IMG/VR virus record: IMGVR_UViG_3300010396_000042
Coordinates: 33,299-97,298 of that record
DNA from: a virus
DNA: 64,000 nt
Strand: one strand, 5' to 3'
The notes under the pieces were generated by a model. It ran no database searches. It was given only the letters and a program-made list of their open reading frames with translations, and was not told where the DNA came from. The translations under genes were made by a program, and so were the position numbers. Positions 16,491 to 49,946 of the stretch are shown in pieces. Every line of letters begins with the position of its first letter. Position 1 is the stretch's first letter.

Positions 16491-16504
16491 TAGCTCTGGG
16501 TTCT

Positions 16505-16578
16505 GGCTCCGTAGCTCAGCGGTTAGAGCAGCGCGCCTTATAAGCCGCAGGTCGCGGGTTCGAACCCCGCCGGAGCTA
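16505..16578 (+). tRNA. tRNA-Ile (anticodon TAT), one extra base in anticodon stem
   Basis: Acceptor GGCTCCG pairs with CGGAGCT (one G-T), D-arm GCTC/GAGC, T-arm GCGGG-TTCGAAC-CCCGC. The anticodon loop is CTTATAA, giving TAT (reads AUA). The anticodon stem closes as GCG-GC/GCCGC only if one C (about 16534) is bulged, so the gene is one base longer than normal. CCA is not encoded. AUA is rare in high-GC genomes, so a mobile-element tRNA for it may serve element genes. Confidence 0.82.
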
Positions 16579-16611
16579 CCCATCCCGATCCCCCAGCGAA
16601 CCAAGGAAGTC

Positions 16612-25116: not shown

Positions 25117-26000
25117 TGGTCTCCGACGTCATCGCGAACGTGCGGCCCCGACACAGCTCCGGCGACCTGCGGATGCTCAATCCTGTCGAGCGCAAAGCTG
25201 CACTGATGGCCTGGGGTGGCGCGGACCTGGTGGACATCGCGACCGAGACGGGTATGCCCTTTCAGCACGTCCGGGAAGCCGTCGCATTGCAGGCCAAATG
25301 GAGACGCGAGCCGCCGCCGCCCGGCTGGGATCCTGGTCCGCAACCCGAACCGGTGCCGGATCCGGATCCGGATCCGGATCCGGATCCGCTCGGCGAGGTC
25401 GGCGATCTCTCCTCACCCCTGCCGGTCTACGCAGGCGGCATCGATCGCTTACCAGCCGAGGATCGAGCGGACCTGGAACGCGGGCAGGAAAACATCCAGC
25501 GCCTGCTCGACCAGGCGCAGGCCGAGGAGGGGCGGGACGCCGAACTCGAGCAGCTCGTCCAACCGCGCCCCGCACCACGACCGGTCTCGATCTCGATGGG
25601 CGGAATGGACATCGCGCAAACCGTGCGCGCCGGCGAACGCAGCGACGATGCGCACGCCAGAGCGCTGGCGGGGCGTATCCGCCGCCAGGTCAACGAACTG
25701 AGCGCATACCTCGCCACGAAGACGGAGATCGACCTCGCCCATCAGCGAATCAGCACGCTGCAAGACGAGGTCGAATCCCTCAAGAGGATCGTCCGGCACC
25801 GCGAATCGCACCGCCCGGCCAATGCCCGGGCCGCTGCGAGAGAGCCAACCGCACCCGTGATCAAGGCGACGGACGACATGAGGTACTCGACGACAGTGCG
25901 GGACTGGGCACGACTACACGGCCTTGCGGTCGCAGACAGAGGCCGCATCGCCAACAGCGTCGTCCAGGCGTACCTGGCGGCGCATCCCGCCGAGCGCTAG
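25116..26000 (+). CDS. Lsr2-type C-terminal domain protein with HTH-like head and coiled coil
   Basis: 294 aa; ATG overlaps the glycosyltransferase stop. Residues about 30-65 (E-R-K-A-A-L-M-A-W-G-G-A-D-L-V-D-I-A-T-E-T-G-M-P) look like a helix-turn-helix. Then a (PD)5 stretch coded by CCGGAT repeats, a long coiled coil (about 190-240), and at the C-terminus M-R-Y-S-T-T-V-R-D-W-A-R-L-H-G...G-R-I-A-N-S-V-V-Q-A-Y, an Lsr2-type DNA-binding domain. It is a paralogue of the product at 22619-23147 in its last 40 residues. It could bridge or silence AT-rich DNA. Its stop overlaps the stop of the convergent gene. Confidence 0.82.
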   Translation: MVSDVIANVRPRHSSGDLRMLNPVERKAALMAWGGADLVDIATETGMPFQHVREAVALQAKWRREPPPPGWDPGPQPEPVPDPDPDPDPDPLGEVGDLSSPLPVYAGGIDRLPAEDRADLERGQENIQRLLDQAQAEEGRDAELEQLVQPRPAPRPVSISMGGMDIAQTVRAGERSDDAHARALAGRIRRQVNELSAYLATKTEIDLAHQRISTLQDEVESLKRIVRHRESHRPANARAAAREPTAPVIKATDDMRYSTTVRDWARLHGLAVADRGRIANSVVQAYLAAHPAER

Positions 26001-26290: not shown

Positions 26291-26376
26291 ATCACTATGG
26301 TGCCCGCTGCGTCCGACAATCAGCACCCCGATTACCAGAAAACCCGCACCGGGACACGGGCACCCGCGAACCTCAT

Positions 26377-26405
26377 TTGTTAGGCCGCCACGCGGCGCAA
26401 ATCAT
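26377..26405 (+). promoter_or_regulatory. Weak promoter-like elements ahead of the RNA array
   Basis: TTGTTA at 26377-26382 followed after 17 bases by AATCAT at 26400-26405. The -35 is good and the -10 poor. It is the only promoter-like pair I can see between the leftward zinc protein gene and the first RNA. An array promoter is expected here, but this choice is a guess. Confidence 0.25.
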
Positions 26406-26440
26406 TCGCTGCCGGTGATCCGCACGGCTACCGTGATCTC

Positions 26441-26522
26441 GTCCCGGTGCGATAGGCGACGGTTACTTCCTCTCCTCTCCAGAGAACCCAAGAACACCGC
26501 CGCCGGCCTTCGATCTCGGGGC
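26441..26522 (+). ncRNA. Candidate Y RNA A (no tRNA-like module)
   Basis: Outer stem GTCCCGG (26441-26447) with TCGGGGC (26516-26522), all seven positions paired (one T-G, one G-T). Then a conserved internal loop (TGCG on the left, CTTCGATC on the right), then an inner stem GGCGACGGT (26455-26463) with ACCGCCGCC (26496-26504), eight of nine paired. The terminal loop (26464-26495) starts with the conserved TACTTC and is pyrimidine-rich; it has no T-arm or acceptor. This is the simple Y RNA design: Ro-binding stem plus a loop. Its outer boxes are the same as those of the four tRNA-like RNAs downstream. Confidence 0.7.
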
Positions 26523-26547
26523 ACACAACTGAACAATGACTGCGAAC

Positions 26548-26682
26548 GCCCGCCAGGTGCGTAGGAGAGAGCTACTTCCAACTTGCTGATTGGGTGGTCC
26601 GGGTTCGAATCCCGGCGGACCTTCGGGTCTGTGGTGTAACGGCAGCACTCTTGTCGCTTTCCCCGATTCGATCTCTGGCGGC
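26548..26682 (+). ncRNA. Candidate Y RNA B, tRNA-like, UUCG-capped acceptor stem
   Basis: Outer stem GCCcGCCAGG (26548-26557) with TCTGGCGGC (26674-26682); inner stem GGAGAGAGC (26564-26572) with GCTTTCCCC (26656-26664). Inside, in permuted order: T-arm CCGGG-TTCGAAT-CCCGG (26599-26615), then acceptor strands CGGACC (26616-26621) and GGTCTG (26626-26631) closed by the tetraloop TTCG (26622-26625), then D-arm GTGT/GCAC (26634-26648) with GG in its loop. A free 3' end for CCA is impossible, so this is a tRNA mimic, as in the tRNA-like module of bacterial YrlA RNAs. Confidence 0.85.
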
Positions 26683-26699
26683 ACTCGCAGTGGAACGCA

Positions 26700-26804
26700 C
26701 CTCCCGGTGCGCAGGCCACAGGTACTTCTTGGTCACCATGGGTTCAAATCCCATCCGCGCCCTGACCGGCGCGGGGTTCCTGCAGCCGCTTCGATCTCGG
26801 GAGG
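26700..26804 (+). ncRNA. Candidate Y RNA C, tRNA-like, D-arm lost
   Basis: Outer stem CCTCCCGG (26700-26707) with TCGGGAGG (26797-26804), eight pairs. Inner stem GGC-CA-CAGG (26714-26722) with CCTG-CA-GCC (26779-26787), seven pairs around a CA/CA mismatch. Inside: T-arm ATGGG-TTCAAAT-CCCAT (26738-26754), acceptor CCGCGCC (26755-26761) with GGCGCGG (26768-26774), seven perfect pairs closed by loop CTGACC. Only GGTT replaces the D-arm, so this copy keeps the acceptor/T half of the tRNA fold but not the elbow partner. Confidence 0.85.
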
Positions 26805-26832
26805 ATCGAACGCTGAACAACTGAATACGGCA

Positions 26833-26986
26833 CCTCCCGGTGCGCAAGGCGAGGAGTTCTTCACAGTCGTCGCGGGTTCAAATCCCGTCGCCCGCAACAC
26901 GTGGGGCGTGGCTGAGCGGCCTAAAGCGCAGGGCCCACGAGGCCCTGTTCGACGGACGAGCCTCACCTGTTCTCGATCTCGGGAGG
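26833..26986 (+). ncRNA. Candidate Y RNA D, tRNA-Ser/Leu-like with extra hairpin
   Basis: Outer stem CCTCCCGG (26833-26840) with TCGGGAGG (26979-26986). Inner stem AGGCGAGG (26847-26854) with CCTCACCT (26961-26968), seven of eight paired. Inside: T-arm GCGGG-TTCAAAT-CCCGT (26872-26888), acceptor CGCCCGC (26889-26895) with GTGGGGCG (26901-26908; one G too many, bulged or an indel), loop AACAC, D-arm with GCT/AGC, then a hairpin AGGGC-7 nt-GCCCT (26930-26946) like an anticodon arm with ACG in the loop. This is the longest member. Confidence 0.83.
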
Positions 26987-27000
26987 GACAGCATTGGGGT

Positions 27001-27139
27001 CACGCCCGGTGCGCAGGTAACGGGTCCTTCGGAATCAAGGGTTACTGGTTCGAGTCCAGTCGCCGCCCTCACCGGCGGTGTGGCTCAATTGGTAGAGCAT
27101 TGGTCTAACAACCCCGTCGCCGCTTCGATCTCGGGCGTG
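27001..27139 (+). ncRNA. Candidate Y RNA E, most complete tRNA mimic
   Basis: Outer stem CACGCCCGG (27001-27009) with TCGGGCGTG (27131-27139), nine pairs. Inner stem GGTAACGGGT (27016-27025) with ACCCCGTCGCC (27111-27121). Inside: ATCAA (27034-27038) pairs with TTGGT (27100-27104) as an anticodon stem; T-arm ACTGG-TTCGAGT-CCAGT (27044-27060); acceptor CGCCGCC (27061-27067) with GGCGGTG (27074-27080), seven pairs closed by CTCACC; D-arm GCTC/GAGC with GG in the loop. All four tRNA helices are present in circularly permuted order. It ends 47 bases before the Ro60 start codon. Confidence 0.87.
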
Positions 27140-27186
27140 GCCACTCTTCTCTCCTCCCACCGCATCCGTTCGATGGGAGTCGAGCC

Positions 27187-28842
27187 TTGTCCCGCTTCAA
27201 CACCCCGGCCGCCAAGCCGGCCGTCCACTCCCCGATCGCCACCCAGGCCGTGGCCACCATCAGCACCCATGAGGGCGCGCCGGGTTATGCCCGATCGGAC
27301 GCTAAGGGTGAGCTGTTTCTGCTCGCGGTCTCCAACCTGGTGGGCAAGAACACCTTCTACGAGCAGGCCGGCGCCCGTGACGAGCGGTTCGAGCGCCTCA
27401 TCCACCAGGTCGCGATCGAGGATCCCGCCTGGCTCTCACGCTTCATCCCCTGGCTGCGCGGCGAGGCCAACATGCGCACCGCGTCCCTGGTCGCGGCCGC
27501 GGAGGCGGTCAAAGCACGCCTGGACGCCGCTAAGGGGACCGCCAACAACCTCGGCGCCCAGCTCACGGTCGGCCAGCAGACCGACGAGCACACCGCGGGC
27601 GGCCAGAACCGCAAGCTGATCGATGCCGCGTGCCAGCGCGCGGACGAGCCCGGAGAGCTGCTCGCCTACTGGACGTCCCGCTACGGTCGCGCGATCCCCA
27701 AGCCGGTCAAGCGCGGCCTGGCCGACGCCGTGCGCCGCCTCTACAGCGAGCGGTCGCTGCTCAAGTACGACACCGACTCCAAGGGCTACCGCTTCGGCGA
27801 CGTCATCGACCTCGTACACCCCTCCCCCGCTGTGGACCGGCGCTGGCAGGGCGAGCTGTTCGAGCACGCCCTCGACCGCCGCCACGGGCGCGACAAACCG
27901 ATCCCCGCCGGCCTGTCCACGCTGATCGACCGCGAGCGGCTGATGGCCACACCGCTCGACCAGCGCCGCGAGACACTGCGCCGACACCCCGAGCTCCTTG
28001 CGCGCGCCGGCATGACCTGGGAGGCCCTCGCGGGCTGGCTGCAGGGCCCGATGGACGCCGAGGCGTGGTCGGCGATGATCCCGTCCATGGGGTACTTCGC
28101 GCTGCTGCGCAACCTGCGCAACTTCGACCAGGCCGGCGTGCCCGACGAGGTCGCCGAGAGCGTGGCCGCGCGCCTCGCGGACCCATCACAGGTCGCATCC
28201 TCCCGCCTGTTCCCGTTCCGGTTCTACGCCGCGCACAAGAACACCGGCTCGCTGCGCTGGGGCCACGCCCTGGAGAAGGCGCTGCGCGCGTCCCTCTCCA
28301 ACATCCCGGCGCTTCCCGGCCGCACGCTGGTGCTCATCGACCAGTCGCCGTCGATGTTCCCCGGCTTCCACTTCTCAACGCCCAGCGACAGCGACATCTC
28401 CGCCGCGGAGAAGGCCGCGCTGTTCGGCGCCGCCGTGGCGCTGCGCGCGCAGAACGCCGACCTGGTCGGGTACGGGCAGAACAACTACCGGGTGCCGTTC
28501 GGCAAGGGCGACGCGGTGTTGGAGGTGATGAAGCGCTTCCGGATGGACGACGGCACGGACACCCCGCGCGCGATGGTCGAGCACTTCCGCGGCCATGACC
28601 GGGTGCTGATCGTCACCGACGAGCAGACCGCGTACTCGAACACCGGCCGCACCGTCGACAACGCCGTGCCGGCCAACGTTCCTGTCTACACCTGGAACCT
28701 CGCCGGTTACCGGCCCGGGCACGCCCCATCCGGCACGAGGAACCGCCACACCTTCGGCGGCCTGACCGACCACGCCTTCAAGATGGTGCCGCTGCTCGAG
28801 GCGGGACGGGGCCAGCAGTGGGATGTCGTATTCGGCAAATAG
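27187..28842 (+). CDS. Ro60-family RNA-binding protein (TROVE plus vWA domain)
   Basis: 551 aa, close to Ro60's usual length. The TTG start is supported by GGGAG seven bases upstream. Residues about 15-370 are the helical-repeat TROVE ring (for example F-L-L-A-V-S-N-L-V-G-K-N-T-F-Y-E near 42 and W-L-S-R-F-I-P-W-L-R near 81). The C-terminal vWA domain has a MIDAS D-Q-S-P-S near 386-390 and V-T-D-E-Q near 475. Ro proteins bind Y RNAs on the outer rim and misfolded RNA ends in the central hole, and in bacteria work with exonucleases in RNA quality control. The five tRNA-like RNAs directly upstream are its obvious partners. Confidence 0.95.
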   Translation: MSRFNTPAAKPAVHSPIATQAVATISTHEGAPGYARSDAKGELFLLAVSNLVGKNTFYEQAGARDERFERLIHQVAIEDPAWLSRFIPWLRGEANMRTASLVAAAEAVKARLDAAKGTANNLGAQLTVGQQTDEHTAGGQNRKLIDAACQRADEPGELLAYWTSRYGRAIPKPVKRGLADAVRRLYSERSLLKYDTDSKGYRFGDVIDLVHPSPAVDRRWQGELFEHALDRRHGRDKPIPAGLSTLIDRERLMATPLDQRRETLRRHPELLARAGMTWEALAGWLQGPMDAEAWSAMIPSMGYFALLRNLRNFDQAGVPDEVAESVAARLADPSQVASSRLFPFRFYAAHKNTGSLRWGHALEKALRASLSNIPALPGRTLVLIDQSPSMFPGFHFSTPSDSDISAAEKAALFGAAVALRAQNADLVGYGQNNYRVPFGKGDAVLEVMKRFRMDDGTDTPRAMVEHFRGHDRVLIVTDEQTAYSNTGRTVDNAVPANVPVYTWNLAGYRPGHAPSGTRNRHTFGGLTDHAFKMVPLLEAGRGQQWDVVFGK

Positions 28843-28852
28843 GCTCGCTGGC

Positions 28853-29587
28853 ATGGGTCGTCCCCGCCAGCCGTGGAAGCTTCCTTTCGAGGAGGTCCGC
28901 CGCCGATATGAATCAGGCGAGTCCGCACTTTCACTCGCGGTCGAGTGCGGGCTCGCTACCTACCATCCCGTTCTCCAGGCGCTTCGCGAATCGGGTGTCC
29001 CGATCAGGAATCCCGGAGGCCAAGCTGGCCCGCGCCCGAACCATACATCTCAGAAGGAAACGAGGACCTGCAGCGGGCTGAACTGCCAAAACACGTTCAC
29101 GGCTAATCCGTCGATGAACAAGCGATTCTGTTCGCCGTCCTGCCGGTACACGTCACCTGAGTTGGCAGCACTCCGGACCGCGAACATCAAGAACCGTCAC
29201 GAGCTCACATCCGTCGACGAGGAGAATCTCACCGCGACCTGCTCGGTCTGCGGACCTACCGACATCCGGGAGCGCCACGAGAAACGCCGGTTTCCTGGCC
29301 AAAGGAGGTGGCGCTGTCGGGGTGCCGAGCGTGCAGCGGTCTGGGCGCGGCACTACGGCATTGAAGCCGAAACGGTACACAAAATGTGGAGCGCACAGGA
29401 CGAGCGGTGCGCGATCTGCCGGACCGCTTTGGGCCGCAAGTTCTACATCGACCACTGCCATTCGACTGGCCGCGTCCGAGGGCTACTCTGCCACTACTGC
29501 AACGCCGGAATTGGACTGTTTTACGACGATCCAACACGGTTGGCTGCGGCGATCGAGTACTTACTCGCTGCTTCCGCCGCGCACTAA
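28853..29587 (+). CDS. Recombination endonuclease VII-like HNH nuclease
   Basis: 244 aa; the start at 28853 is chosen because the preceding codons overlap the Ro stop region without a ribosome site. N-terminal G-R-P-R-Q-P-W-K and a helix-turn-helix-like stretch (E-S-A-L-S-L-A-V-E-C-G-L), then a C-S-G-L-N-C...C-S-P-S-C zinc finger, and at the C-terminus C-A-I-C...Y-I-D-H-C-H-S-T-G-R-V-R-G-L-L-C-H-Y-C-N, the zinc-binding catalytic signature of endonuclease VII. Such genes are often free-standing homing-type nucleases, so it may be an insertion beside ro. Confidence 0.88.
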   Translation: MGRPRQPWKLPFEEVRRRYESGESALSLAVECGLATYHPVLQALRESGVPIRNPGGQAGPRPNHTSQKETRTCSGLNCQNTFTANPSMNKRFCSPSCRYTSPELAALRTANIKNRHELTSVDEENLTATCSVCGPTDIRERHEKRRFPGQRRWRCRGAERAAVWARHYGIEAETVHKMWSAQDERCAICRTALGRKFYIDHCHSTGRVRGLLCHYCNAGIGLFYDDPTRLAAAIEYLLAASAAH

Positions 29588-49757: not shown

Positions 49758-49830
49758 GCCCCGGTCGTCTAGCGGCCTAGGATCTCCGGTTCTCAGCCGG
49801 CCAGCACCGGTTCGAATCCGGTCCGGGGCG
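49758..49830 (+). tRNA. tRNA-Glu (anticodon CTC)
   Basis: Acceptor GCCCCGG with CCGGGGC, seven pairs; T-arm ACCGG-TTCGAAT-CCGGT; anticodon loop TTCTCAG gives CTC. CCA not encoded. Two bases separate it from the next tRNA. Confidence 0.88.
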
Positions 49831-49831
49831 C

Positions 49832-49905
49832 GGCGCCGTCGTCTAGCGGTCCAGGACCCCGGACCTTCAATCCGGCCAGCACCGGTTCGAATCCGGTCGG
49901 CGTCA
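49832..49905 (+). tRNA. tRNA-Glu (anticodon TTC) with C at position 33
   Basis: Acceptor GGCGCCG with CGGCGTC (one G-T); T-arm ACCGG-TTCGAAT-CCGGT; anticodon stem CCGGA/TCCGG with loop CCTTCAA, giving TTC. The base before the anticodon is C where nearly all elongator tRNAs have U, so function may be impaired or specialised. Confidence 0.82.
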
Positions 49906-49946
49906 CACCGCATCAGCAATCGCTGACACACGATCAGGAGTCCCCA

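Follow-up and report, generated by a model that had tools for sequence, protein, structure and literature searches.

A circularly permuted tRNA-like head with a capped acceptor stem in a probable tandem Y RNA array beside a phage Ro60-like gene

Nucleotides 26599-26631 of the window (the whole 64,000-nucleotide stretch of DNA analysed, part of a 97.3-kb virus record) very probably form the tRNA-like head of a Y RNA of bacterial type that belongs to a tandem set of four, a reading to which we give a probability of about 0.92. The source virus is a phage of actinobacteria that carries its own Ro60 (Rsr) gene beside the Y RNA array. The array of four units, B to E, spans 26550-27138 on the same strand as the Ro60-like gene and lies within the 640 bases directly upstream of it. 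The features are listed here, with the scores of units C and D taken from the covariance model described below.

26550-26681, + strand: unit B, a whole Y RNA-like element with 7/7 basal pairs (Rfam YrlA match at 26550-26684, 26.2 bits)
26557-26561, + strand: GUGCG of unit B, 5' half of the presumed Ro60-binding internal motif
within 26577-26594, + strand: small local hairpin of unit B, CCAA-n8-TTGG, between ACUUC and the T-arm
26599-26615, + strand: T-arm of unit B, CCGGG-TTCGAAT-CCCGG, with a canonical T-loop UUCGAAU (direct sequence reading and descriptor)
26616-26631, + strand: acceptor stem of unit B, CGGACC/GGUCUG, 6 bp, closed by a UUCG tetraloop (direct reading and helix covariation)
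26634-26648, + strand: D-arm of unit B, GUGU-AACGGCA-GCAC, with GG in the loop
26669-26674, + strand: CGAUCU of unit B, 3' half of the presumed Ro60-binding motif
26700-26804, + strand: unit C, Y RNA-like, with T-arm at 26738-26754 and cap CUGACC at 26762-26767 (28.9 bits)
26833-26986, + strand: unit D, Y RNA-like, with T-arm at 26872-26888 and cap AACAC at 26896-26900 (34.3 bits)
27002-27138, + strand: unit E, Y RNA-like, with T-arm at 27044-27060, cap CUCACC at 27068-27073 and D-arm at 27083-27098
27187-28842, + strand: gene for a Ro60-like (TROVE, Rsr) protein of 551 aa (Pfam TROVE, 5.2e-14)

The organization of the unit B head is read directly from the letters, the T-arm CCGGGTTCGAATCCCGG being followed by CGGACC, TTCG, GGTCTG, a TG spacer and the D-arm, which matches exactly the order that an earlier note had described at 26599-26631. 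The 3' acceptor strand (CGGACC, 26616-26621), loop (TTCG, 26622-26625) and 5' strand (GGTCTG, 26626-26631) make six standard pairs of six, one of them G-U, with the loop closed by C26621-G26626 (cUUCGg). The head is thus a tRNA elbow whose parts are circularly permuted and whose acceptor end is sealed by a small loop, and the claim that it is permuted relative to a tRNA gene, with a cUUCGg-capped acceptor, is borne out by this reading, by covariation and by the 131 bacterial rows described below. Since a free 3' CCA end is absent, the RNA is predicted not to be chargeable with an amino acid.

The four units share a frame and vary in their heads. The unit B basal stem pairs CCGCCAG (26550-26556) with CTGGCGG (26675-26681) at 7/7 positions, and every unit has seven standard pairs there (CCGCCAG/CTGGCGG, CCTCCCG/CGGGAGG twice, and ACGCCCG/CGGGCGT), always with GUGCG just inside the 5' strand and CGAUCU just inside the 3' strand (4/4 window units). 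Acceptor and D-arm sequences and caps differ among the four heads. The caps that the earlier note read in the other copies, CTGACC, AACAC and CTCACC, are all correct, and its proposal that capping is a design common to the copies agrees with the caps seen in all four units and in related modules. In unit C no D-arm is recognisable; the basal stem, the T-arm and a capped acceptor of 7 bp are kept. The acceptor stem of unit D contains one bulge; this unit also has an extra hairpin at about 26931-26948 (roughly AGGGCC-CACGA-GGCCCT), between the D-arm and the basal stem, which resembles an inserted arm. The covariance model scores unit E at 68.1 bits and unit B, one of its 20 training rows, at 58.9 bits.

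The Ro60-like protein has its closest annotated phage relatives among 'Ro-like RNA binding proteins' of Streptomyces, Gordonia and Arthrobacter phages (36-49% identity), and a profile of its relatives matches PDB 2nvo Rsr (4.2e-16) and 1yvp Ro60 (2.8e-14); D385, S387 and S389 are invariant. An RtcB RNA-repair partner was not found in the virus record, nor a sigma-70-like promoter in 26330-27200. Next after the Ro-like gene comes a gene (28823-29587) that encodes a recombination endonuclease VII domain and gives a weak match to a helix-turn-helix. Elsewhere in the window, a short GGATCC tandem repeat (25358-25390) lies inside an open frame ending in an Lsr2 DNA-binding domain, a tRNA at 16504-16582 has a strong Rfam score (62.4 bits) and an anticodon that ARAGORN does not read, and two tRNA-Glu genes (CTC and TTC) stand head to tail with zero gap at 49758-49906, with a tRNA-Gln nearby on the opposite strand.

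Minimum-energy folding of the whole unit separates neither unit B (z -1.16) nor unit D (z -0.44) from shuffled sequences, and covariation was therefore used. The window and 18 related loci were searched with a descriptor comprising T-arm, capped acceptor and D-arm. It finds about 35 modules near Ro60 genes in these 19 sequences versus 7 matches in 8.58 Mb of dinucleotide-shuffled sequence; the few other matches either overlap genuine tRNA genes or are duplicates from redundant contigs. In an alignment of 20 phage modules, 98.4% of cells are paired, all seven acceptor pairs have changes on both sides, and the covariation score is 0.875, whereas shuffling gives 0.248 and sliding at most 0.193. 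From this alignment a covariance model was built and run over 175 sequences; it gives 136 matches in 80 bacterial loci, none of them used for training. In the 131 distinct bacterial rows, 98.0% of cells are paired and double-sided changes number 366, versus 79.8 in shuffles; fitting this alignment to the model biases it in the model's favour. Compensatory change is strong in the acceptor, T and D helices of the 20 phage modules and again of the 131 bacterial modules, and extends to all seven acceptor pairs in both sets. The permuted, capped fold is not a product of chance.

Linkage to Ro60 is conserved. Of the 80 actinobacterial loci (Streptomyces, Nonomuraea, Actinomadura and others), 77 have at least one module on the strand of the Ro gene and no more than 1.6 kb upstream of it, as do 81 of the 96 viral loci, some of the module-free viral loci starting at a contig edge or being unsearched. 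Nearly all model matches at the bacterial loci are upstream of the Ro gene and on its strand. There are usually one or two modules per locus at the threshold used, and the module closest to the start codon is most often 60-100 bases from it.

The outer parts of the units also recur among relatives. Of 263 related units, 249 have a basal stem at GUGCG with 6/7 or more pairs, the stems having been selected for that pairing and shuffled partners reaching it in 20%; 231 of these have a recognisable 3' motif, with 70 distinct stem versions among them, and GUGCG is present in 214 of the 231. By analogy with known Y RNAs, the basal stem with GUGCG/CGAUCU has the position and type expected of a Ro60-binding site, and is presumed to be one. 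Between ACUUC and the T-arm, 223 of 251 units can form a local hairpin with 4 bp or more (a count without a shuffled control), and CACT/AGTG in locus L008 is a compensatory variant of it. Every one of 250 distinct modules has GG in the D-arm region, and their caps have a median length of 4 bases, with 3-4 bases in most. UUCG is the commonest tetraloop cap (19/100, versus 6.9 with columns shuffled, the related sequences being non-independent), closing 5 of the 126 bacterial modules and 14 of the 124 viral ones. It is a recurrent solution for sealing the stem, and clearly one among many. The UUCG loop is accordingly a recurrent variant, and this kind of RNA is not defined by it.

Three properties place the array among the Y RNAs: an adjacent Ro60/Rsr gene (the TROVE protein at 27187-28842), a permuted domain of T-arm, closed acceptor and D-arm (in unit C without a clear D-arm), and a basal stem that pairs the ends and encloses a conserved internal motif, presumably for Ro60 binding. 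Chen and others (RNA 2014) reportedly identified likely Y RNAs close to Ro60 in over 250 species of bacteria and phages, each of which is said to have at least one Y RNA with a tRNA-like domain. Taken with the YrlA architecture, this means that the array belongs to a known kind of RNA: capped tRNA-like Y RNAs are already known from bacteria and are common in this group of actinobacteria and phages. In YrlA, a bacterial Y RNA, the two ends are joined in a large stem and the tRNA-like domain comprises D, T and acceptor arms; Rsr is held by the basal stem and PNPase is bound by the head, and the RNA is modified by DusA and TruB (PMC8394870). Its crystal structure superposes on tRNA in circularly permuted form (PMC11472068), and YrlA relatives tether Rsr to PNPase (PMC11472068, PMC8394870). 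The likeness to the YrlA tRNA-like domain that the earlier note suggested therefore holds, the architecture being that of a bacterial Y RNA (PMC11472068, PMC8394870). YrlA (RF02553) is the top RNA family match in the array (unit E 37.8 bits, unit B 26.2 bits); with a gathering score of 69, the array shares the architecture and falls outside the Rfam family as curated.

At Rfam gathering thresholds, a scan of the window gives tRNA-like matches only, and the modules upstream of the Ro gene in the relatives tested stay below threshold for every Rfam family. The actinobacterial Y RNAs upstream of Ro genes (L019-L098) seem to be without an Rfam family; those at the 11 bacterial loci scanned score below the gathering threshold of every Rfam 15 model.

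The order of the halves, 3' before 5', would also fit a true permuted tRNA gene, whose RNA would be cut in the cap and joined through its outer ends at the anticodon loop to give a mature, CCA-ended tRNA. This is very improbable because there is no discriminator or CCA (CCA is absent from the acceptor-cap regions of all four window units), because the cap has only four bases in unit B and 3-4 in most modules, and because the outer ends are paired in a covarying basal stem with a fixed motif. The linkage to Ro60 is moreover constant, and in unit B inspection shows a local hairpin on the 5' side and no anticodon stem to connect the halves. No tRNA-splicing endonuclease is known in bacteria. A degenerate ordinary tRNA gene in normal order at 26555-26624, where ARAGORN reports a tRNA-??? 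and the Rfam tRNA model scores 29.7 bits against a gathering score of 29, is just as hard to credit: its anticodon is unreadable, half of the match is the basal-stem side of the Y RNA, and no orthologues were found that keep normal-order acceptor and anticodon stems by compensatory change. This reading of unit B was rejected: among 251 related units, just 17 keep its acceptor with 6/7 or more pairs, whereas the capped acceptor covaries throughout.

A different proposal concerns what the heads do, namely that they are chiefly decoys, stabilised by Ro60, that during infection sequester host enzymes which attack or handle tRNA. In related phages these RNAs are kept within large tRNA arrays, and the YrlA head has been proposed as a possible anticodon nuclease inhibitor (PMC7790460), which would suit such a role. 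However, the same RNA is present in nearly all sampled actinobacterial chromosomes with this Ro60, so that it is not a phage-specific decoy, and unit B is without an anticodon arm, so that anticodon nucleases are unlikely to be fooled by it; a mainly decoy function is accordingly unlikely.

As Y RNAs, the units would work through Ro60. We infer that the array is transcribed, that its RNAs are bound by Ro60 and modified, and that the heads serve an effector. From its placement and from known Y RNAs, the basal stem with GUGCG/CGAUCU would bind the Ro60 ring, and the head would fold as a tRNA elbow, acceptor arm and D-arm, with the chain opened on the anticodon side and the acceptor closed by a loop (UUCG). 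The sealed head would keep the elbow (T-loop UUCGAAU, D-loop GG) and offer no 3' end, and with a tRNA-like elbow and a capped acceptor it is therefore predicted to be readable by elbow-reading proteins without CCA addition or charging. By analogy with RYPER of Deinococcus, the head would most likely serve Ro60 as a tether or gate for an effector, of which the host exonuclease PNPase is an example, and the Ro60-linked effector might then degrade or screen structured RNA during infection; that PNPase itself is the effector has roughly an even chance. It is also conceivable, if rather unlikely, that the four different heads recruit different tRNA-reading proteins and act as interchangeable adaptors or decoys on one Ro60 ring, redirecting host RNA processing.

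Ro60 and capped tRNA-like Y RNAs form a family that is present at nearly all sampled actinobacterial loci and in many of their phages; those tested give no Rfam 15 match at threshold, and some members are called tRNAs in phage records. The covariance model and the cap statistics would permit annotation of these RNAs and tests of the role of Ro60 in phages.

Among named systems, phages BRock, GiJojo, VanLee and Atuin (of Streptomyces, Gordonia and Arthrobacter) likewise have a Ro-like gene with at least two adjoining capped modules, which differ in being unannotated or called tRNAs and in their caps (CTCG, CTCT, CTTCG, AGT and others). The annotated tRNA-Arg(cct) of GiJojo (L010:3769-3843) and tRNA-Ser(gct) of Alone3 (L011:3774-3847) overlap Y RNA modules, whose T-arms are at L010:3818 and L011:3822, and are probably misannotated tRNAs. 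Permuted tRNA genes of archaea and algae also place the 3' half before the 5' half, whereas unit B has no CCA or discriminator and no sign of a splice site, and its ends are held by the basal stem. The Deinococcus radiodurans system of Y RNA, Rsr and PNPase (RYPER) similarly pairs a Ro60 orthologue with an adjacent Y RNA; it has PNPase, whereas the partner nuclease of the phage locus is putative and no RtcB was found in the phage record. The closest likeness is in architecture to YrlA (RF02553; PDB 6CU1), a circularly permuted tRNA mimic encoded beside Rsr and built in the same order of basal stem, T-arm, capped acceptor, D-arm and basal stem. The phage array is too distant from it in sequence for the Rfam gathering score (37.8 and 26.2 versus 69 bits), its unit B has a 6-bp acceptor, and it has features of its own in the GUGCG/CGAUCU basal motif, the UUCG cap, the four tandem copies and its carriage by a phage.
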